A stretch of 24,565 bases of DNA, from the IMG/VR virus record IMGVR_UViG_3300020021_000246, positions 1 through 24,565 of that record; one strand, 5' to 3'. Within the stretch, counting starts at the first letter, position 1. Each line of letters starts with the position of its first letter. The stretch is from a virus. Below, one piece after another: positions 3,915-22,286 of this stretch. The position numbers and the translations under genes were made by a program. Below the pieces are notes generated by a model that was not told the DNA's origin, ran no database searches, and saw only the letters and a list, made by a program, of their open reading frames with translations.

Positions 3915-4358
3915 ATGGACATCTACGCCAAAATCCGCACGCTCGCGCAACTGGATGCAACGCTATCGGCGCTGTTCTTCACGGGAACGCAGCGTTGGTT
4001 CAAACAGCAGATACAGCCGGGATACATCAGCAAGGGCCTCTGCGTGCGCGTGAGCAAGCCCACGACGGTCTTCAGCTACACGCAGTACGGCCTGATGAAT
4101 CTCAACAAGCCGCTGATGCAATTCGACATTCTGGGCTTCGACAGCACCGCAGTACAAGCCGCAACGATAGCGGTGATTAATTGGATGGGAACGGTCTCTT
4201 TCGCCGAGACGAACGATTTTGATTCGCCAGCGACGACGCCGCCGCACTCCCCCAACTTCCTCCTTAACCGCAGGTCCGGGATGGAAGCGCAGGTAGATCC
4301 ACCTGGACCTGTGTACATCGAGACACTCGATTTTCGCATTTACAATCTGGAGAACTGA
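3915..4358 (+). CDS. Tail terminator / tail completion protein candidate
   Basis: 147 residues. The ATG at 3915 is taken; an in-frame GTG at 3897 is possible, and the GGAGG at 3900-3904 is 11 bases from the ATG. The protein starts with a short helix (IYAKIRTLAQLDATLSALF), has VCV/RVSKPTTV-type strands and NKPLMQFDILGFDS, and ends VYIETLDFRIYNLEN. The F-D-[IL] strand in the middle and an E-x-x-D-F-x-I-[YW] strand at the end are typical of small proteins that cap the tail before head joining. The place right before the tail tube gene fits. The first HNH insert cut this gene away from the rest of the head-completion set. Confidence 0.6.
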   Translation: MDIYAKIRTLAQLDATLSALFFTGTQRWFKQQIQPGYISKGLCVRVSKPTTVFSYTQYGLMNLNKPLMQFDILGFDSTAVQAATIAVINWMGTVSFAETNDFDSPATTPPHSPNFLLNRRSGMEAQVDPPGPVYIETLDFRIYNLEN

Positions 4359-4364
4359 CACATC

Positions 4365-4847
4365 ATGAGCACCTTTCCTATCGCAATCCCGGCAATCGGA
4401 ACCCTACTGAAAGTGGGATACGGATCGCCTGAAGTTTTCTATTCCATCGCCAACATCGGCGATCTGACCGGCCCGTCGATCTCGGCGGCTGTCGTTGATG
4501 TCACATCGCACACGTCGCCGTCTGCCCCGTGGCGCGACAAAATCACCACGCTGCTGGACGCGGGGACAATCACGTTGCCGCTGTACTTCGTCCCGGCATC
4601 GACCGCCCCGTCCGCGCCCGGTCAGTTCATGGGCCACGGGTTCGTTAGCGGACTCGGCAAGCTGTTCACGAATCGCGGGTTATCGCCGGGCGTGCCGTAC
4701 AACTGGAAGATTGTATTCCCTGACGGCGTGCCGACGACTTACAGCTTCACGGCTTGGGTGTCGAAATATAGCCAGAAGGCTCCGGTCGCGGGTGTGCTGA
4801 CTGCGGATTTGGAATTGAGTATCACGGGAGTCCCGGTGTTCGCGTAG
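4365..4847 (+). CDS. Major tail tube protein
   Basis: 160 residues. Key parts: SIANIGDLTGPSISAAVVDV, TSHTSPSAPWRDKITTLLDAG, then a beta-rich C-terminal half with NWKIVFPDGVPTTYSFTAWV and VLTADLELSITGVP. The I-x-x-[IV]-x-x-[IL]-x-G-P-x-x-x-x-x-x-[ID]-V-T ... G-x-I-T-L-P-[LV]-Y-F arrangement is that of siphophage tail tube subunits, which stack as rings around the tape measure protein. The position between the terminator candidate and the tail chaperones supports this. No sheath gene is present nearby, so the tail is probably non-contractile. A GGAG ribosome site is about twelve bases upstream. Confidence 0.82.
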   Translation: MSTFPIAIPAIGTLLKVGYGSPEVFYSIANIGDLTGPSISAAVVDVTSHTSPSAPWRDKITTLLDAGTITLPLYFVPASTAPSAPGQFMGHGFVSGLGKLFTNRGLSPGVPYNWKIVFPDGVPTTYSFTAWVSKYSQKAPVAGVLTADLELSITGVPVFA

Positions 4848-4864
4848 TCGAGTTTACACGTAAG

Positions 4865-4900
4865 TCGCGCCGCTCTTAGTTCGTATCTAAGGCGGCGCGA
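4865..4900 (+). terminator. Strong stem-loop after the tail tube gene, possible terminator
   Basis: TCGCGCCGC (4865-4873) pairs perfectly with GCGGCGCGA (4892-4900), 18-base loop. It sits 17 bases after the tail tube stop. Only a weak T stretch follows, so it may attenuate rather than end transcription; strong tube expression is often set off in this way. Confidence 0.45.
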
Positions 4901-4912
4901 TCTGTCAAAAGC

Positions 4913-5569
4913 ATGACCACGCTCGAAGTCATCGGTCGGTTTCACGGGCTTTATTCTGGCGGGCTAGCGCAAGAAAAGAGAGACTCTGGAGACGCGACAG
5001 CCATGCCGCCATGGGCCGAAACGTATTGGCTCGGCAAGCAAGTCGTGAAGTGCCCGATGGACCTGTGGGTCTATCAGGAAATCCTGTGGGAAACGCAGCC
5101 CGATGTGCTGCTCGAAACCGGCACAAGCGGCGCGGGCTCAGCATTCTTTTTCGCCAGCATCTTCGACCGTATCGGCAAGGGCCGCGTCGTCACGGTGGAC
5201 ACCGAATACTACCCGCATCTTCGCATCGACCATCCGCGCATCAAGTACCTGACTGGCAGTTCGATTAATCCGCAAATTGTTGCGCAGATGTGTAGCGAGG
5301 CCGAAGGAAAGGTTATGGTTTCGCTTGATTCTCTGCACACGTACGAACACGTGAAGGCCGAACTCGACGCCTATGGTTCGCTAGTCACGACCGGCTGCTA
5401 TCTCGTTGTGGAAGACACCGGATGGGGGCCGCCTGGCGATCAGCGGGCATGGGCCTGCGATGCCGCCGCTGAGTTCCTTCGCGAGCATCCCGAATTCGTG
5501 GCGGACGAGAAGTGTGAGAAGCACCTTCTGACGTCAAACCGCGGCGGATGGCTGAAGCGGGAACCTTGA
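4913..5569 (+). CDS. CmcI / cephalosporin hydroxylase-family SAM-dependent enzyme
   Basis: 218 residues, near full family length. A Rossmann methyltransferase core is visible: CPMDLWVYQEILWETQPD (48-64), the SAM loop LLETGTSGAGSA (66-77), VVTVD (92-96), LTGSSINP (113-120), VSLDSLHTYEHV (136-147), YLVVEDTGW (163-171) and near the end EKHLLTSNRGGWLKR. D139 and E167-D168 stand where I expect the metal-binding acids of CmcI. The family (named after cephamycin biosynthesis) mostly acts as O-methyltransferases on sugars or small molecules; the substrate here is unknown. Odd placement: it lies inside the late tail operon, between tube and chaperone genes. It has no clear ribosome site. It could modify a host glycan or a virion protein; it has no expected part in tail assembly. 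Confidence 0.85.
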   Translation: MTTLEVIGRFHGLYSGGLAQEKRDSGDATAMPPWAETYWLGKQVVKCPMDLWVYQEILWETQPDVLLETGTSGAGSAFFFASIFDRIGKGRVVTVDTEYYPHLRIDHPRIKYLTGSSINPQIVAQMCSEAEGKVMVSLDSLHTYEHVKAELDAYGSLVTTGCYLVVEDTGWGPPGDQRAWACDAAAEFLREHPEFVADEKCEKHLLTSNRGGWLKREP

Positions 5570-5594
5570 CGCGCCGCCCTTTTCCGTGCATAAT
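5566..5594 (+). promoter_or_regulatory. Sigma70-like promoter
   Basis: TTGACG at 5566-5571, 17-base spacer, CATAAT at 5589-5594: five of six consensus bases in each box at the ideal distance. The -35 overlaps the stop codon of the CmcI-type gene. The expected transcript start is about 5601, exactly where the structured RNA begins. It would also serve the chaperone and tape measure genes. Confidence 0.6.
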
Positions 5595-5600
5595 TCAAAT

Positions 5601-5745
5601 CGGGCCGAATGCGGTCGGGTCTACATGCGATTGAGACTCGGCTATTTTCTTGTCGGCCCAAGACTTCTTACGAGACCCCAAAGGGGACACGCCGAGACGG
5701 ACGGTGGGGCAACGCCTTCACGTGATTCCACCGTCCGGGCTCGGC
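5601..5745 (+). ncRNA. Multi-stem structured RNA in the gap before the tail chaperone gene
   Basis: The 224-base gap 5570-5793 has no convincing gene but folds strongly by eye. P1: GGGCCGA 5602-5608 with TCGGCCC 5653-5659. P2, nested within P1: 5613-5622 with 5634-5643, ten pairs including three G-U. P3: CCCC 5676-5679 with GGGG 5683-5686, AAA loop. P4: GCCGAG 5691-5696 and CGGACGGTGG 5698-5707 with CCACCGTCCG 5728-5737 and CTCGGC 5740-5745, sixteen pairs with a small internal loop; its terminal loop can form a further GGC-AAC-GCC hairpin. A promoter ends seven bases before P1. There is no terminator after P4, so it may be a 5' leader of the chaperone operon or a processed separate RNA. It does not resemble a tRNA or any riboswitch I can place. 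Confidence 0.5.
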
Positions 5746-5793
5746 GCTGAACTTCTCATCCCGCCTATCCCTCGTTTCTGCTATCTTTTACCC

Positions 5794-6288
5794 ATGGAAC
5801 CAACCAACACCACAAACAACAACATCATCACCAGCATCTCTGCCGAAACTTGGCCACGCGTCAAGGTAGGCACCAGCCAAATACTCGAAGTGAAATGGGG
5901 ATTCTTCCCGCGATTCCTGTTGTCCAACTGGGGGCTGTCGCTCGACAACATCCTGGCCGCTATGCGGTCCATTCGCACCGTGACGCCGGAGGTCAAGGAT
6001 GAGGCCGGCGAAGTCGTGACGGCTGCCGTTCTAGCGGTCGATGATCCCGGCTACACCGCGCGAATGATGGAGCTCTTCGCGGCGATGGTCGGCCACAACT
6101 ACACGCAGATCGGGCAGACACCTCCGAGTGCGATGCATTGGGCGACGCAGATCGACGAGGGTCAGTGGATTGAGTGCCTCAAGGCCATGATGCTGGCAAT
6201 GGGAAAGGAAACGGCAGCGAGGAAAGCCGCTCAAGCCCCGCTGCCGGAAAAGACGGAGCAAGCCCAGACGATCCCGACCCTGCAATAA
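5794..6288 (+). CDS. Tail assembly chaperone (lambda gpG-like), zero-frame product
   Basis: 164 residues from the ATG at 5794. An upstream in-frame TTG at 5650 would translate through the structured RNA and is rejected. The start has no Shine-Dalgarno site but a TATCTT box six bases before it. Content: a Thr/Asn-rich N-terminus, WGLSLDNILAAMRSIRTVTP, GYTARMMELFAAMVGHNYTQ and ECLKAMMLAMGKETAARK. Such helical chaperones bind the tape measure protein and guide tube polymerisation; they are absent from the finished virion. Position directly before the tape measure gene (HNH insert apart) and the overlapping -1 frame make the assignment firm. Most ribosomes end here; a minority slip at 6201-6207 and make the longer fusion. 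Confidence 0.8.
   Translation: MEPTNTTNNNIITSISAETWPRVKVGTSQILEVKWGFFPRFLLSNWGLSLDNILAAMRSIRTVTPEVKDEAGEVVTAAVLAVDDPGYTARMMELFAAMVGHNYTQIGQTPPSAMHWATQIDEGQWIECLKAMMLAMGKETAARKAAQAPLPEKTEQAQTIPTLQ
6201..6246 (+). promoter_or_regulatory. Programmed -1 frameshift signal: GGGAAAG slippery site plus stem-loop
   Basis: GGGAAAG at 6201-6207 is in the correct zero-frame register (atG GGA AAG) and is the same heptamer used by lambda G/GT. Four bases later CGGCAGCG (6212-6219) pairs perfectly with CGCTGCCG (6239-6246), an eight-pair stem able to pause ribosomes. After slipping, reading continues at 6207 into the -1 frame, which is open to 6638. Confidence 0.85.
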
Positions 6289-6638
6289 GAGAGGGGTACT
6301 GGGTGAATCTCTGGGCGTTCGCCACATCGCCGCACGGACTGGCTATTCCAGAGAAAAAGTTCTGGTATATGTCCTTCGCCGAGTACAATGCCTTCTATCG
6401 CGTCTGGGAGAACTCCCGCAAGCCGGAGCGGTTCCAGTGGGCCGAGATGATGGCGTTGCTGTGGAACTCCAACGGCGGTAAGCCCGCCAAAAGCGCCTAC
6501 GACTACTTGCCAGACGAGAAGCGACCCGCGAATTACGACAAGCCGTGGATAGTCAAGGACGTGGAGTCGCAGAAGCTTTCGATTATGCAGGCGTTGGCTT
6601 TTGCGGCGGGGGCGAACGAAGGGAAACAGCCAAGCTGA
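6207..6638 (+). CDS. Tail assembly chaperone extension (lambda gpT-like), made as a -1 frameshift fusion
   Basis: The -1 frame adds 143 residues to the first 138 of the chaperone, giving a 281-residue fusion, close to the size of lambda gpGT. The frame is open upstream to 6174 but has no ribosome site and no ATG, so independent translation is unlikely. Content: an acidic/Gly/Ser linker (KDGASPDDPDPA), then YWVNLWAFATSPHGLAIPEK, FWYMSFAEYNAFYRVWENSR, FQWAEMMALLWNS and YDYLPDEKRP. The aromatic-rich C-terminal domain is the part that, in the lambda system, binds the tail tube protein while the G part binds the tape measure. Ends 48 bases before the second antisense HNH gene. Confidence 0.8.
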   Translation, partial: GNGSEESRSSPAAGKDGASPDDPDPAIREGYWVNLWAFATSPHGLAIPEKKFWYMSFAEYNAFYRVWENSRKPERFQWAEMMALLWNSNGGKPAKSAYDYLPDEKRPANYDKPWIVKDVESQKLSIMQALAFAAGANEGKQPS

Positions 6639-6686: not shown

Positions 6687-7151
6687 TCAAAGTGTAGCAC
6701 GGGAGCGATTCATACGATAACGAAGCTGATACTCGGCGCGGCAAATCTTGCAGAAACGTTGCCGTTTCTTTCCTGGACGTCCAGAGATTCCGCTAAAGGG
6801 GTGACCCTTGCTGCACGTCAGAAGGTTAGCGTTCTGTGCTTTTCTACCGATCATCGCGGGACCCAGTCTCAGCCCTCTCTGGAAATTCACCAGCGGGGTT
6901 ACGGCTTCCAGATGGATCGGATTTACACAACAGCGCACCCGGCACAAATGATCGAGTTCGAGGCCTCCGGGAACGGGGCCGTTGCGAGTTTCCCAGTACC
7001 ATTTATGGGCTACTACGGTTTTCCCGTCAGCCTTGAATTTGGCGTATCCGCCGCGCGCTTCTCCTGCCATCCACAACCAACACCCGGTGTTGGGTTCGGG
7101 CGAAACGTGGCTCCAGAATCGTTCCAGTGTCGTAAGCTTGGATTTAGGCAT
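6687..7151 (-). CDS. HNH homing-type endonuclease (antisense insert 2)
   Basis: 154 residues. AAGGAG lies six bases before the ATG at 7151. Motifs: T-G-C-W-L-W (22-27), AHKW (48-51), LDHLCRVRCCVNPIHL (66-81) with catalytic D67-H68, N77 and H80. One C-x-K-G-H ... C-x-x-C knuckle follows (C113, H117, C134, C137), against two in the insert at 3196-3819. The two proteins share the core D-H-L-C-R-V-R-C-C-V-N-P and the G-G-Y-[AG]-[KR]-F strand but differ elsewhere, so they are relatives rather than a fresh duplication. It splits the chaperone genes from the tape measure gene, a spot where those genes are usually adjacent, which argues for an inserted mobile gene. The + strand frames over it are shadows. 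Confidence 0.93.
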   Translation of the reverse strand: MPKSKLTTLERFWSHVSPEPNTGCWLWMAGEARGGYAKFKADGKTVVAHKWYWETRNGPVPGGLELDHLCRVRCCVNPIHLEAVTPLVNFQRGLRLGPAMIGRKAQNANLLTCSKGHPFSGISGRPGKKRQRFCKICRAEYQLRYRMNRSRATL

Positions 7152-7197
7152 CGTGGCTCCTTTCAGTCGCGGTGTTTATGGACCGCCCAGCGCGTCA

Positions 7198-7223
7198 ACG
7201 CTGCTGCGGTCCTTTCTATTTTA
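7198..7223. repeat. 26-bp element shared by both HNH inserts, copy B
   Basis: Same element as at 3868-3893 (21 of 26 identical, TTTCTATTTTA at 7213-7223). It lies about 50 bases upstream of the HNH start on the - strand and 17 bases upstream of the tape measure start on the + strand. The following bases (CGC, then GAGGT) are also alike in both copies. Confidence 0.55.
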
Positions 7224-7240
7224 TATCGCACGAGGTGCTT

Positions 7241-10200
7241 ATGAGCGAAGTGATCGGTGGCGTTTCCGTTATTATTGAAGGCGACTACTCCGGCCTTCAG
7301 TCAGACTTCGATGCGGCGCAGGCGCTGGCCGCGTCAGCAGCTTCCAAGATCGCGGACGCGCTCGACTTCGCGGCGCCAGACACCGCGCCGGTAACTGCAG
7401 CGCTTCAGCAAGTCTCCGATGCGGCCACAGCCACGGGCCAGAGCATCGCCACGGCTCTCGACGTTCAGATTGCCGCGCCCGACGTGTCGACGGTAGTTGA
7501 TAGCTTCGCGGCGCTTAGCGACTCAGCCACAGCGTCCGCAAGCGCGATTGCGGGGGCATTCTCTGGCGATGCGCTGCCAGCTCCTGACACTTCCGCCATC
7601 ATTGACGGCTTCACCGCGATCGACACAGCGGCACAACAGGCAGCCGATACCATTGCGCAAGACTTTTCCGCGATGGCTATCCCCGCGCCCGATATCAGCG
7701 GCTTCACGGGTGCGCTATCGCTGGCAGATGAGGACCTCGGGAAGCTGGAGGCGGATTTCCTCGCGCTTGAAGGTTCGACATCTGGGGCGGCGGCTGCGTT
7801 CACTGGCGTGGCGGATGCCATCGGGCAGGAGACGACCTCGGCGCTCGATGGGCAAGCGGCACTTCAGGCCATCATCCAGCAACTCACGGACGGCGAGATC
7901 AGCGGAAAAGAATTCGTAACGATGTCGAACGCGCTCGCCAATGCGCTGGAGGCGGTGGGGGCTGAAGCGCCTGCGGTGGCGGCGGGACTGAGTTCGATAA
8001 GCGAGGCGGCGACGGCAGCGGCGGTAGGGGAGAAGGCGTTCTCGGATGCGGCGCAAGCCATTATCGACGAGCAGGCAAAACTGGACAGCGAACTGTCCAC
8101 TGCGCAGGGTGCGCTTGCCGAGATCCGCGACGCATACGCCAGCGGCGCGATTAGTGCGGAGACGTTGGCACGAGCGGAAAATGAGGTCCAGTCCGCATTC
8201 AGTGCCGCGAACCCAGCAATCGAAGAAAGCGGAAAGGCTGCGGACGGCGCGAAAGAATCGTTCAGCGCACTGAATTCGGTTCTCGGGGCCGTTGGTATCG
8301 CGCTGAGCGTTGGCGCGTTTGTGAGCTTCGCCGAGTCGATAGGAGAGGTTTCCGACAGCATCAACCGGGCGACGATCTCGCTCACTGCGTTGACGGGCGA
8401 TGCGGAGAAAGCAAAGAGCACGCTCGAAGGACTCGAGCAGATTGGAATGTCCGATGGCCTGTCAATGCCCAGCTTGTTGCAGGCCGCGACATCTATGCAG
8501 AACCTCTTGCCTGCCGGGACGGACGTGGTCGGCGTTCTCAGCCAGATCGCAGACGGTGCGGCGATCATGGGAAAGAGCGTTGATGCGGCAGTGTCTGCTT
8601 TTGATCGCATCGTTGACAGCGGAAAGGTGTCCGACAAAACGCTTTCGTCCATGGGCCTCAATATGGACAAGCTCAAAGAAGGCATGGAGGAGGCCGGGGT
8701 AGCTGCCGGTATTCTTGCGGACGGGACAAAGAAAGCATTCGCCGAACTCGATCAGCATGACCGAATTGCCGTAATGCAAACAGCACTCCAGCAGTTCCAG
8801 GGAGTTGCTGAAGACATCGCGAACAATACTTTCGCGGGCGTGTGGCATCAGGCTATCGCGCAGTGGGATGCGGATATCAATAAGATCAAGACGGACCTCG
8901 GGCCACTGACTGATTCGGTATTGCCGAATCTGAAGGCTCTCGTTAACGATGTCGCGGCGGCTTTTGTGGCCGCGTTCGGCGTGATCAACTACGCCGTTAC
9001 CAGCATCGTCGGCAATATAGTGGCGCTACAGACCCAACTGGTTGGCCTAGCGACCGCATCGAAAGACGCACTATCAGGAAACTTCGCGCAGGCGGGTAAA
9101 GACATCTCCGACGCATTTGCAAACGCAAGCGCGGTGATGACGAAGACGAAGGACGACATGGCCGCCAATTGGGCTGCCAGTCAGAAGACTATTCAAGACC
9201 TGATGACGCAAACGGCGACAAGCGTCACTCCGGTTATTACTGCGCTTGATAACCTGGGCGGTCACGCGAAGGATACCGCGAGTAAAATAGCCGATGCTCT
9301 CGCGGCGGTACAGTCATTCGATAACAAGGTAACTGCTGGCGGTGGAGTGGCCGCGCTACAGGCCGCTTTCGAGAATGCATCGAAGGCCATCAACATAGTT
9401 GCCAAGAACGATCTTCCAGAAGCGATAAAGGCTGTCGATGACTATACTGCCGCACAGGTCCGCAACGGTGCCAGTGCCAGCGTAATCATGCAGGCGTTTC
9501 AGGATGAGTCGAAACTAATCGGGCAACTCGCCAAGATTGACCTGCCTGACGCCGTTTCGGCGATGAACAAGTTAGTCGCCGAGTTCTCCGCAGCAAAGGA
9601 GCCACTCGGAATCGTTCAGGCCGCGTTCGAGCAAGAAGAAAAACTCATCGCCCAGTTGGCCAAGGAGGATTTCCCAGCCGCAAGCGCGGCGTGGGACAAG
9701 CTGATTCAGACGTTGAAGGAGACGGGCGCTCCACTATCGATACTCAACCAGGCGTTGCAGGACCATCAGAAGTTTTTGGACGCGGCGGCGAAATCAGCAG
9801 AGGCCGCGGCAGCCGCGATGGACAAGGCGGCGCTGGCCTACGCCAAGTTCAACCTGCAAGGTCCTGCGGCTACGCAGGCTATTAAAGACGCAGCGGCTGC
9901 CCTGGATAACCTCGGAATAATGGCGGCCAAAGCACCTGCCGCGATTGATCCGGTCAATCAGGCCATGATTGACTTCGGAGTCAGCGCAGGCAAACTCAAG
10001 GATGCGGTCCAGAACCTTCACACTCCCATCGAACAACTCACGACGGACATGGGAAACCTTATCGCCAAGGCTCAACAAACAGGCGATTGGTCTCCGATAC
10101 TAACCGCTCTCGATACCTTTGACAAGCGCATTTCTTTTATTGCCAAGACTGATCTGCCGGAGGCAGCCAGCGAACTCGAAGCGATGACTCAGAAGTTGAT

Positions 10201-12244
10201 AAACATGCACGCTCCTACCGATTTGGTAGTCGGGCAGATGAATCAGCTTGAGCCGATTCTAAAGAAGATGGCAGATGAGGACGTGCCGGGGGCTACCGCC
10301 GCATGGCAGAAGTATCTCGACTTACTGAAGCAGGTTCCGGCTGCGATCAAGGATATCCAACAAGGTGATACTGAGACGCTCCAGCAGAACCAGCAGATCC
10401 TCGCATCCATGCAGGCGCGCGGCGATGCGTACGGCTACATTCTCACTCAGCAACAGAAGGTGTTGCAGGAAGAGATAGCCATCGCCGAGAAGACCGGCGC
10501 AGACGCAAATGATCAGGTATTGGGACTCGAAAAGGTAAAGCTAGCGACTGAGGAACTGCGCCTCGAAAGTCACGGATTAGCCGATCAGGAAGTCGCGATG
10601 ATCGGCGATATTCTGAAGGGCTTCGACCAGATGGGGCAAGCGATGGCCGGGGCTATCGTCAATGGGAAAAACCTCGGCGATGCACTCGTTGGCGAGTTCA
10701 AGAAAATAGGGCAAAGTATTCTCGGGGACTTGATAAACGCCGCGTTGATCCCGTTAAAACTTGCACTGTTCGAGCTGATTGGCAGCCTGCTTCCTGGCAT
10801 GAGCGGCGCAATGAGTATCGTGGGTGGCGGACTCGGAGCGATGAATACCGCGGCGGGTACGGCGGCAACTGGGCTGACGGCTCTTGCAACCGCAGCCCAA
10901 ACGGCAGCGGCCAACATCAACGCCAGTGTCGGAGGAGCCGGAGACGTCAGCAGTGCGGGTGGCGGACTGACAAGCGCGATAGGTGCGGTTTCCGCCGTGG
11001 TCTCGGCAGGGGCGGCAGTGGCCAGCGCGATCCTGCTTGCTCACATCAGCAGCGATACCGGCCACATCGAAGTCAATACGCGTAGCTGTCTCGCTGAACT
11101 GGAGAATCGGCGGCAGGATGCGTGGGACCAATACAACGGGATGTATCAGCGGATTGGCGAGATACTCAACGCCGTCCAGGGGGTCGAAGAAAAGCTCTCT
11201 CATCTGACCGTCAGCGCCACGGCGGCAGCCTTGACTCCTGCGGAAAGCAAGGCTCTCGAAAGCGCGGGCGACAATGCGCCGTTGATATTCTCGGAGCTCG
11301 TCGCGATTCAATCGAACACCCAATATGCGCTTGCGGCACTGCAAAACATCAGCGGCGAGCTTGACGTAGCGTTCGGCGGAAACAGCATTTACGACATGCT
11401 GGCAGTGATCAACGCGTCGATCCTAACTGTGGTGTCCGCCATCAACTACGGCACGCAGTCGGGGAAGAGCTACAGCGAACAAGCGACGGAGGCCGCGCAG
11501 GCAGTGGCGGAGGACGTACAAAACGGGGCGATGAGCGCCCATGCGGACCTCAGCAGAGTCGATACATCTATTCAGGAGGCGACGTCTTCCGGTCGCACGA
11601 ATACCCAACTGACCGTGGACCAGCAGATAGCGAAGCGGCAGGACGATATCGCGACTGCACAGGCAGCGGCCAACGACGCGCGGAATATTGCGGATAGGGT
11701 GGACGCGCTGCGGTCGGAATACAGCGCTGATATCGCCGCGATGAACGATGCGCTGCGGGCGGGGAATGTCGACCTCGCTACGCAATACCAGCACGCGGCA
11801 GCGGCGGTTCAGGAGCAAATCACCCCACTGCTAAGCTCGACCGCAACCAATACCGGCAATACGGCGACGTACGTTGAGGCCGCAGGAAACCAGACGGCGT
11901 TCGCCGCGCAGGGCGCCGGGGTTCTAGTCTCCGCCGCAGTCCAGCAAAGCGCGGCGACGATATCTCAAGCCGTGATGGCGGGGGCTGTGGCAAGCGCCTC
12001 GCTCTTTAATACGGGACTATCTTCGCTGTCGTCTATCATCGGCGCGTTCGGGAGGGCTGGCGGCGGACTCCCTGGCGGCCAGACGGGCTTGCCGAGCGGC
12101 TCCGGGCTCGGCAATGCCAATCCGAACGGCACGCCGACCTACGCGAATCCTGGAATCCCTATTGGCGAACAGCCGGGATTTAATCCTAATCCGCCGGCCA
12201 CGGGCGGGATGACTCAGGCGCAATGGGAGGCCACGGGACAATAG
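7241..12244 (+). CDS. Tail tape measure protein, main part
   Basis: 1667 residues from the ATG at 7241, with GAGGT five to nine bases upstream; an in-frame start at 7172 lies within the promoter region of the HNH gene and is rejected. The protein is almost wholly Ala-rich helix with heptad-like patterning. It begins EVIGGVSVIIEGDYSGLQSD, followed by three 34-35-residue A-P-D units, hydrophobic stretches near residues 344-364 (VLGAVGIALSVGAFVSF), 1165-1190 and 1249-1269, and a 43-residue repeat block near residues 709-837 and 956-1041. Tape measure proteins fill the tail tube, set tail length and help DNA entry. The frame ends at TAG 12242-12244 after a Gly-rich tail; the sequence carries on in the +1 frame (next CDS), so the full product is probably about 2028 residues. 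At roughly 0.15 nm per residue that would be a tail near 300 nm. Confidence 0.93.
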   Translation: MSEVIGGVSVIIEGDYSGLQSDFDAAQALAASAASKIADALDFAAPDTAPVTAALQQVSDAATATGQSIATALDVQIAAPDVSTVVDSFAALSDSATASASAIAGAFSGDALPAPDTSAIIDGFTAIDTAAQQAADTIAQDFSAMAIPAPDISGFTGALSLADEDLGKLEADFLALEGSTSGAAAAFTGVADAIGQETTSALDGQAALQAIIQQLTDGEISGKEFVTMSNALANALEAVGAEAPAVAAGLSSISEAATAAAVGEKAFSDAAQAIIDEQAKLDSELSTAQGALAEIRDAYASGAISAETLARAENEVQSAFSAANPAIEESGKAADGAKESFSALNSVLGAVGIALSVGAFVSFAESIGEVSDSINRATISLTALTGDAEKAKSTLEGLEQIGMSDGLSMPSLLQAATSMQNLLPAGTDVVGVLSQIADGAAIMGKSVDAAVSAFDRIVDSGKVSDKTLSSMGLNMDKLKEGMEEAGVAAGILADGTKKAFAELDQHDRIAVMQTALQQFQGVAEDIANNTFAGVWHQAIAQWDADINKIKTDLGPLTDSVLPNLKALVNDVAAAFVAAFGVINYAVTSIVGNIVALQTQLVGLATASKDALSGNFAQAGKDISDAFANASAVMTKTKDDMAANWAASQKTIQDLMTQTATSVTPVITALDNLGGHAKDTASKIADALAAVQSFDNKVTAGGGVAALQAAFENASKAINIVAKNDLPEAIKAVDDYTAAQVRNGASASVIMQAFQDESKLIGQLAKIDLPDAVSAMNKLVAEFSAAKEPLGIVQAAFEQEEKLIAQLAKEDFPAASAAWDKLIQTLKETGAPLSILNQALQDHQKFLDAAAKSAEAAAAAMDKAALAYAKFNLQGPAATQAIKDAAAALDNLGIMAAKAPAAIDPVNQAMIDFGVSAGKLKDAVQNLHTPIEQLTTDMGNLIAKAQQTGDWSPILTALDTFDKRISFIAKTDLPEAASELEAMTQKLINMHAPTDLVVGQMNQLEPILKKMADEDVPGATAAWQKYLDLLKQVPAAIKDIQQGDTETLQQNQQILASMQARGDAYGYILTQQQKVLQEEIAIAEKTGADANDQVLGLEKVKLATEELRLESHGLADQEVAMIGDILKGFDQMGQAMAGAIVNGKNLGDALVGEFKKIGQSILGDLINAALIPLKLALFELIGSLLPGMSGAMSIVGGGLGAMNTAAGTAATGLTALATAAQTAAANINASVGGAGDVSSAGGGLTSAIGAVSAVVSAGAAVASAILLAHISSDTGHIEVNTRSCLAELENRRQDAWDQYNGMYQRIGEILNAVQGVEEKLSHLTVSATAAALTPAESKALESAGDNAPLIFSELVAIQSNTQYALAALQNISGELDVAFGGNSIYDMLAVINASILTVVSAINYGTQSGKSYSEQATEAAQAVAEDVQNGAMSAHADLSRVDTSIQEATSSGRTNTQLTVDQQIAKRQDDIATAQAAANDARNIADRVDALRSEYSADIAAMNDALRAGNVDLATQYQHAAAAVQEQITPLLSSTATNTGNTATYVEAAGNQTAFAAQGAGVLVSAAVQQSAATISQAVMAGAVASASLFNTGLSSLSSIIGAFGRAGGGLPGGQTGLPSGSGLGNANPNGTPTYANPGIPIGEQPGFNPNPPATGGMTQAQWEATGQ
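7373..7684 (+). repeat. Three 34-35-residue repeats in the N-terminal tape measure protein
   Basis: Units start at APD codons 7373, 7475 and 7580, with a fourth APD at 7685. Pattern: A-P-D-x-S-x-x-x-x-x-F-x-A-x(5)-A-x(4)-I-A-x-x-[FL]. Amphipathic helix pairs, protein-level repeat only. Confidence 0.6.
9365..9751 (+). repeat. Three exact-period 43-residue repeats in the tape measure protein
   Basis: Units start at 9365, 9494 and 9623 (129 bases each), with a partial fourth at 9752. Two further copies lie at 10106 and 10235. Shared pattern: A-[FL]-x(4)-K-x-I-x-x-[LV]-A-K-x-D-[LF]-P-x-A-x-x-A, ending near A-P-L-x-I-x-x-Q. DNA identity is low, so these are old repeats kept by function. Confidence 0.7.
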
Positions 12245-19067: not shown

Positions 19068-19772
19068 ATGTTTTACATCGACCGAGAGAGTAACGGGATT
19101 AGCTATGGCGCGATAATGCTCGTGGAGAGTGACGCGTTCGACTCGCTGAATGGACTGACGATCGAAGCCGGAAATCGTGGCTGGTCGAAGCAGACCGTGA
19201 CAGACATTTGGAATGGCTTCGCCGGCACTGCTGGCCCGTTCGCCGATCTCAAGCCCTGCAAGTGCTTCAAGAATCGGCCGTACGGGCTCGCTAAGATTTG
19301 GGCGGCCATCCAGCGGCTCGTGCCAAAGGAAATCAATAATGGCGAAACTCAATCGGCAGCCACTACGCGCAAATGTCTGGATTGCGGTGGCGAAGGGTGC
19401 GATGAATGCGCCGGGACGGGAGAAATCTTAATCGACGCGCCAGAGCAGAGCGCTACGCCTATCCTAAATGGAGAGGTAGAAGAAGCGCCAGCCATGAAAG
19501 CCAAGAACGCCGCGCGCAAGCCGAAGAAGAAAGCGAAGATCGCGAAGCCGGTCAAGGCGACTGCAAAGTCAGACGGCAAGACCAAGCGGGATGAGGTTAT
19601 TCGATTAATGAGTCGTGCGCGTGGCGCATCGACCGAGGAGCTTTTGGAAGCTACCGGATGGCTCGGACATTCCCTCAGGGGGTTCGTGAGCACACTCGGA
19701 TCGAAACACGGCATCACAATCATTTCGGAAAAGGACGAGAAGCGCGGGCGAGTGTACCGGATCGCCGCGTGA
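19068..19772 (+). CDS. DUF3489-domain protein with a zinc-finger-like insert
   Basis: 234 residues; GAGGTG precedes the ATG. Three parts are visible. Residues 1-85 include FADLKPCKCFKNRPYGLAKI, an opening I have seen with this family. Residues 103-118 contain CLDCGGEGCDECAGTG, with C103, C106, C111 and C114 in a DnaJ-type C-x-x-C-x-G spacing, likely a zinc site. After a Lys-rich linker (144-170) the C-terminal domain KRDEVIRLMSRARGASTEEL, LEATGWLGHSLRGFVST and GRVYRIAA is DUF3489: a winged-helix-like fold with the A-T-G-W-x-x-H-S-[VL]-R-G-F core. It is probably a DNA-binding or regulatory protein. The stop overlaps the Dam gene start (GTGA), so the two are made together. Confidence 0.85.
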   Translation: MFYIDRESNGISYGAIMLVESDAFDSLNGLTIEAGNRGWSKQTVTDIWNGFAGTAGPFADLKPCKCFKNRPYGLAKIWAAIQRLVPKEINNGETQSAATTRKCLDCGGEGCDECAGTGEILIDAPEQSATPILNGEVEEAPAMKAKNAARKPKKKAKIAKPVKATAKSDGKTKRDEVIRLMSRARGASTEELLEATGWLGHSLRGFVSTLGSKHGITIISEKDEKRGRVYRIAA

Positions 19773-20176
19773 AATCACGGGTGGTATTCAGCAGCGCCAG
19801 CGTTGAATGGGGCACGCCGTCAGGAGTGTACGAGGAACTCAATCGAGAGTTCGGATTCACCTTGGACCCGTGCCCACTTGGAGGCGATGATAACGGACTG
19901 TCCACCCTGTTCATGCCATGGGAGAATCAGCGGGTATGGATAAACCCACCATACGCCAAGATTCGCCCGTGGCTTGAGCGGTGGAGAGAACCGGAACTGG
20001 CGGTGTATCTAATTCCCAGCCGGACTGACTGCCGATGGTTCCACGATATTGTCTTGCCGCACGCAACCGAGATTCGCTTCATCCGTGGTCGCCTGAAGTT
20101 CGGCGGGGCGACGAATAGCGCGCCGTTTCCCAGCGTTATCATCGTTTTCGACAACAGGGGTAAGCCATACCGTTAG
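19769..20176 (+). CDS. Phage-type DNA N6-adenine methyltransferase (Dam family)
   Basis: 135 residues from GTG 19769, which overlaps the previous stop as GTGA; a longer frame from 19658 lies inside the upstream gene. Motifs match the phage Dam family: EWGTPSGVYEELNREFGFTL (13-32), LDPCP (32-36), WINPPYAKIRPWLERW (57-72) with the catalytic N59-P-P-Y, VYLIPSRTDCRWFH (79-92) and RFIRGRLKFGGATNSAPFPS (103-122). It transfers methyl from SAM to adenine N6 in phage DNA, probably to evade host restriction or to mark replication. It is complete although short, which is normal for this family. The partner DUF3489 protein may help target it. Confidence 0.93.
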   Translation: MKSRVVFSSASVEWGTPSGVYEELNREFGFTLDPCPLGGDDNGLSTLFMPWENQRVWINPPYAKIRPWLERWREPELAVYLIPSRTDCRWFHDIVLPHATEIRFIRGRLKFGGATNSAPFPSVIIVFDNRGKPYR

Positions 20177-21832: not shown

Positions 21833-21863
21833 CAAGTACCGGTACTCGTGATACACTTCACCC

Positions 21864-22286
21864 ATGCCAGCAGATATTGTAATCCCCAGCGGTAAATACG
21901 CGATCATCCAGATAATCGGCCGCGGTCCTGATTCGGACGGCGGAAGCGACCAGCAGTTCGAGGACGGCAGTGCTACTGTGACCGTCAGCGATGCCACCAA
22001 AATCTACGCAGTGCGTACCTCGGCGGCTCATGTGGAGCCCTACGTTGTGGCCATCGTGCCCAAGGTGGTAGCCAGTATCGGAGGTAGCTACCAAGTGAGC
22101 ATCGCAATCAACGGCAACGATGGAGGGAGCGGGACGCCACTGGCCACGCTCACACAGACGATCGAAGTGGACGGTGCGGCGGCGGCTGCGCAGGCTGCGT
22201 TTTCAATCAAACTACACTCGGTCACGTTCGACGATTTGGTCAACGCGCCGGCCGACCCGGACGCTGGGGCGACTATCACCCTGTAG
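21864..22286 (+). CDS. Small beta-rich protein, unknown function
   Basis: 140 residues. No ribosome site; a TACACT box lies six bases before the ATG, suggesting a leaderless message. It reads as a beta protein: PADIVIPSGKYAIIQIIGRG, SATVTVSDATKIYAVRTSAA, SYQVSIAINGNDGGSGTPLA and TLTQTIEVDG, then AAAAAQAAFSIKLHSVTF. No signal peptide, no cysteines. It lies between two secreted sugar-binding candidates and may be a virion or fibre-associated partner. Not recognised. Confidence 0.66.
   Translation: MPADIVIPSGKYAIIQIIGRGPDSDGGSDQQFEDGSATVTVSDATKIYAVRTSAAHVEPYVVAIVPKVVASIGGSYQVSIAINGNDGGSGTPLATLTQTIEVDGAAAAAQAAFSIKLHSVTFDDLVNAPADPDAGATITL

Follow-up and report, generated by a model that had tools for sequence, protein, structure and literature searches.

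A candidate moron-like small RNA gene behind the tail tube gene of an uncultured phage

Small RNAs encoded by phages are known mostly from enterobacterial prophages and mycobacteriophages. Lambdoid prophages carry the anti-sRNAs AgvB and AsxR at a moron insertion site (PMC4104026), and highly expressed small noncoding RNAs were described in Cluster A mycobacteriophages (L5, D29, and StarStuff) (PMC5712189). In Cluster O mycobacteriophages, a stem-loop terminator was reported behind the major tail subunit gene, as was an HNH gene between the chaperone and tape measure genes (PMC4351075). The locus described here is a noncoding gap in a 24,565-base virus record, the whole of which was analyzed and is referred to as the window. 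Our preferred reading, with a probability of about 0.5, is that the gap is a moron-like sRNA gene of the phage, placed in an accessory slot that follows the tail-tube gene.

The gap spans 224 bases without a credible gene (positions 5570 to 5793), between the CmcI-type gene and the tail chaperone gene, and agrees with its description in the first-pass annotation; the surrounding features are listed in Table 1. A GTG-initiated ORF of 54 amino acids (5586 to 5750) was considered as a protein-coding reading and rejected, as no Shine-Dalgarno sequence was seen and nothing else supported it. The predicted promoter shares bases with the stop codon of the CmcI-type gene. Transcription is predicted to begin at about 5601 to 5602, 6 to 7 bases past CATAAT and on the opening base of stem P1; the earlier proposal of a promoter with its start on the first stem was reproduced by both the site scan and the fold. 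A search for the host gave one weak capsid match among 400 genomes from the phylum to which the Kouleothrix record belongs. Promoters were scored against the 12 positions of a sigma-70-type consensus. With at least 10 of 12 matches, the scan of the whole window returned two sites on the plus strand, this one included, and none on the minus strand, compared with 0.5 per plus strand in shuffled sequences.

Table 1. Coordinates of the gap features and flanking genes (stems P1 to P6 from the predicted fold of 5601-5746)
Feature	Position	Strand	Description
Tail tube protein gene, PF16461	4365-4847	+	Domain match
CmcI-type methyltransferase gene, PF04989	4913-5569	+	Insert between tail-tube and chaperone genes
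Sigma-70-type promoter	5566-5594	+	TTGACG-17-CATAAT; 10/12 consensus match; predicted
RNA domain 1	5602-5659	+	P1 enclosing P2; 9-base unpaired ATTTTCTTG on 3' side
P1	5602-5608/5653-5659	+	7 pairs
P2	5613-5625/5632-5643	+	10+2 pairs
Linker and small hairpin P3	5660-5689	+	Linker AAGACTTCTTACGAGA; predicted fold
P3	5676-5679/5683-5686	+	4 pairs; CCCC-AAA-GGGG
RNA domain 2	5690-5746	+	P4, P5, P6
P4	5690-5696/5740-5746	+	7 pairs
P5	5698-5709/5726-5737	+	12 pairs
P6	5712-5714/5721-5723	+	3 pairs
C-rich, G-poor tract	5751-5830	+	31 C, 5 G; candidate Rho-utilization region
Extended -10 element	5779-5787	+	TGC TATCTT; lies six bases ahead of the chaperone ATG; leaderless promoter (predicted)
Tail assembly chaperone gene	5794-6288	+	About 30% identical to same-place gene in L002 and L003

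Behind the tail-tube gene, the bases 4848 to 4912 form a hairpin (-26.5 kcal/mol) without a U tract. The chaperone gene is overlapped in the -1 frame by an ORF at 6174 to 6638, as in frameshifted chaperones of the lambda G-GT type; the same overlap with the next ORF was found in the relative L002. Frameshifting in the window is putative, from the ORF layout. Two HNH endonuclease genes (PF13392; 6687 to 7151 and 3196 to 3960, both on the minus strand) lie inside the virion operon, and one of them separates the chaperone ORF from the tape measure gene.

The RNA of the gap is predicted to fold into two strong hairpin domains with a 30-base linker between them, and this fold is strongly non-random. 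For 5595 to 5755 the predicted energy was -74.5 kcal/mol (z = -5.0), with none of 200 shuffled sequences folding equally well. Because fold boundaries could be cherry-picked, the plus strand was also divided into 977 fixed 150-base tiles, among which 5601 to 5750 ranked first both by energy and by z (-5.7). The local fold of domain 2 (5688 to 5760) was -40.4 kcal/mol, and this domain is a probable 3' stabilizer. The multi-stem arrangement claimed earlier was recovered, although the last stem proved longer than the sixteen pairs given for it, with 19 stacked pairs and 3 more. Next in non-randomness within the window came 19901 to 20050 (z = -5.2), inside a coding ORF, and 7076 to 7225 (z = -5.0), near the start of the tape measure gene.

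In Rfam, no family reached its gathering score for the gap RNA, in line with the initial view of a structured RNA without a known family. Below threshold, there were only weak matches, all to unrelated and implausible families; YrlB (RF02565), the likeness of which was confined to 5599 to 5664, scored 20.6 bits, where the gathering score is 97, and was taken as chance. ARAGORN found no tRNA or tmRNA genes. Sequence collections were searched for the RNA by exact pattern or by blastn, both of which would miss diverged copies; the viral contigs were searched by two exact patterns only. With blastn, there was no match among phages, plasmids, and E. coli, and the exact patterns of 21 and 17 bases returned no real copy from the viral contigs; two exact matches lay in unrelated sequence and had no covariance-model match. 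The covariance model R1, built from the window sequence alone (n = 1), had no real match in the fetched relatives, in 8 whole records or genomes, or in 301 genomes of one phylum, and its hit in the gap of relative L026 with filters off (7.5 bits) was in the wrong register. Elsewhere in the window, the longest direct match of the gap stretch was 12 bases, making it single-copy.

The same slot was compared in related phages, which are viral contigs found with the tail-tube and capsid proteins of the window. Seven of them have a short spacer between the tube and chaperone genes and no RNA (L003, L004, L019, L027, L031, L040, and L052); for a moron-type unit, presence and absence at the same place is documented by the first six, in which the gap is absent or short, and other contents of the slot by L002, L026, and L030. 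In L030, the gap contains an ORF (up to 80 codons). A long noncoding gap was found in three relatives. In L026, the gap has 185 bases, with the promoter-like TTCACA-18-TAGAAT (10218 to 10247) overlapping the end of the tube gene; its fold ranked 3 among 328 tiles and ends in a stem followed by the T-rich tract ACTTTCATTTTT. In L002, two small ORFs are followed by GCGACA-18-TATAGT and about 300 noncoding bases (stretch 4960 to 5300), the 3' end of which is an interrupted, terminator-like hairpin and then TTTCTTTG; its fold was not unusual by tile z-score, and there was no credible match in Rfam. A match of the L002 RNA to a Pantoea plasmid (36 bases, in a degraded transposase-like stretch, without an Rfam family) looks like chance. 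In L050, a short version of about 90 bases carries CTGACA-17-TAAACT, which overlaps the tube gene at its end, then an intrinsic-terminator-like hairpin followed by ATTTGTCT, and then a leaderless -10 element.

These gap contents are not demonstrable homologues of the window RNA by sequence comparison. The best local alignment with L026 had a shuffled P of 0.031 among six comparisons and the global alignment a P of 0.26, so homology to that gap is not claimed. Neither the searched collections nor the fetched relatives yielded a homologue that could be aligned; the fold accordingly has no covariation behind it, and selection on it is unproven. In a further phage, L037, two strong tandem hairpins (9803 to 9866, tile z = -7.7) directly behind the capsid gene are probably a 3' stabilizer or attenuator.

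At the 3' end, the stem P4-P5 is followed by CTGAACTTCTCATCCC, with no U tract, and no intrinsic terminator was seen behind it. The C-rich tract that follows has the highest C-to-G ratio among all 80-base tiles of the window, about half of it being the start of the chaperone gene, whose Asn and Thr codons would also yield C-richness. Bubbles of C over G are typical of Rho-dependent terminators, and the one after the last stem suggests Rho-dependent termination; for a moron-type unit, this bubble is a candidate terminator.

The chaperone gene has no Shine-Dalgarno sequence, unlike most genes of the window, which have a Shine-Dalgarno-like stretch. A -10 element (at least 4 of 6 matches, with position 2 an A and position 6 a T) was found 5 to 9 bases before the chaperone start in 10 of 15 phages, the window and nine relatives (L002, L003, L004, L019, L026, L030, L040, L050, and L052), compared with 4.2% of all ATGs in the window, and six of the ten have the TGn extension. 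Three relatives (L027, L031, and L034) have a Shine-Dalgarno sequence and no -10 element at this start, and L003 has both. With its -10 element at this distance and no Shine-Dalgarno sequence, the chaperone gene of the window is probably leaderless and would have its own promoter, the start being predicted from sequence. A second predicted leaderless gene of the window starts at 21864 (TGA-TACACT-6-ATG, 21842 to 21864), also without a Shine-Dalgarno sequence.

The reading as a moron-like sRNA gene rests on this anatomy. The gap has its own promoter as judged from the sequence (TTGACG-17-CATAAT, 10/12), and the earlier suggestion of a separate phage RNA with its own promoter is supported. Host sigma-70 polymerase would start at about 5601, transcription would probably be ended by Rho in the C-rich tract past 5750, and the 3' end of the RNA would be trimmed back to the P4-P5 stem. 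The leaderless promoter immediately before 5794 would serve the chaperone and tape measure genes and make the RNA dispensable in cis, a view that the relatives support. Since the RNA is isolated and not conserved, it would most likely act in trans, as a decoy or a base-pairing sRNA against a host RNA or a host RNA-binding protein. Pairing of the linker with phage translation starts was no better than that of shuffled sequences, and the best partner of the internal loop, near 19068, was marginal (0.06). A broader reading is more speculative and on balance doubtful: across this uncultured phage clade, the slot between the tube and chaperone genes would be reserved for cassettes of rapidly changing noncoding RNA genes. 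Each gene would bring its own sigma-70 promoter and terminator, the cassettes would be tolerated through the leaderless restart of the chaperone and tape measure genes, and the RNAs would be trans-acting anti-host or anti-defense effectors of several new classes.

The main rival to the moron-like sRNA gene is an expression insulator, which we regard as possible but clearly less probable. Hairpins between the high-output tail tube and the low-output chaperone and tape measure genes would block or trim read-through and stabilize the upstream mRNA, the leaderless promoter would restart transcription at a low level, and the short RNA from the 5566 promoter would be a by-product. The terminator-like hairpin of L050 with ATTTGTCT, at the same place and before a leaderless -10 element, fits such an arrangement, as do two strong hairpins behind the capsid gene of L002 and the Cluster O terminator behind the major tail subunit gene (PMC4351075). 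However, a hairpin is already present right after the tail-tube gene of the window, P4-P5 lacks a U tract, several relatives with short gaps do without an insulator, and neither the near-consensus 5' promoter nor domain 1 is needed for insulation.

It is unlikely that the gap RNA is a cis-acting 5' leader that starts at the 5566 promoter and controls the chaperone and tape measure operon from 5794, at the level of translation or transcription, as the first-pass annotation had considered. Promoter, RNA, and gene do lie on the same strand with no intrinsic terminator between them, but the leaderless start, together with the absence of the RNA from several relatives, weakens this idea: there is no Shine-Dalgarno sequence at 5794, the extended -10 element six bases before the ATG is a layout common with the relatives, five of these (L003, L004, L019, L040, and L052) have the chaperone gene without such an RNA, and the start codon region is largely unpaired in the predicted fold.

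Less probable still is the remnant of a small mobile element, or an inverted-repeat site acting at the DNA level, in place of a functional RNA; the content of the slot does vary among relatives, but the stretch is single-copy, its longest match within the window being 12 bases and no further copies emerging from the searches, and no terminal repeats spanning the unit were seen. A SAM-sensing riboswitch linked to the CmcI-type methyltransferase, proposed earlier from the proximity of a predicted SAM-using enzyme, is highly improbable, because the RNA follows the enzyme gene instead of preceding it, no riboswitch family, SAM-binding or other, was matched in Rfam, and CmcI relatives in L011 to L014 occur without the RNA in other neighborhoods with other genes directly behind them. 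In L011, a tandem pair of CmcI-type methyltransferase genes (4001 to 5397) lies amid glycosyltransferase-like ORFs.

If the moron-like reading is true, uncultured phages would carry an RNA gene within their virion operon, which would indicate a slot for accessory RNAs that is missed by gene-only annotation. The predicted leaderless chaperone promoter, common to most of the clade, would be a simple way to separate high tail-tube from low chaperone and tape measure output.

The gap RNA would resemble AgvB and AsxR in being small, noncoding, and encoded where a phage genome takes up accessory insertions; those are 51 to 60 nt long, Hfq-bound, and located 3' of PR' (PMC4104026), whereas the predicted window RNA of about 150 nt lies in the tail gene cluster and is not known to have a target or an Hfq link. 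It shares with the Cluster A RNAs, likened here by description only, that they are phage noncoding RNAs and that the 3' end of the abundant right-end RNA is set without an evident stem-loop terminator, but the main one is located at the end of the genome and driven by the early promoter Pleft (PMC5712189). The Cluster O terminator differs in being a single 12-pair stem with TTTCT, for which no promoter in front was reported, yet it is likewise a stable hairpin that follows the tube gene within the tail gene cluster, and Cluster O genomes have predicted leaderless mRNAs, too (PMC4351075).
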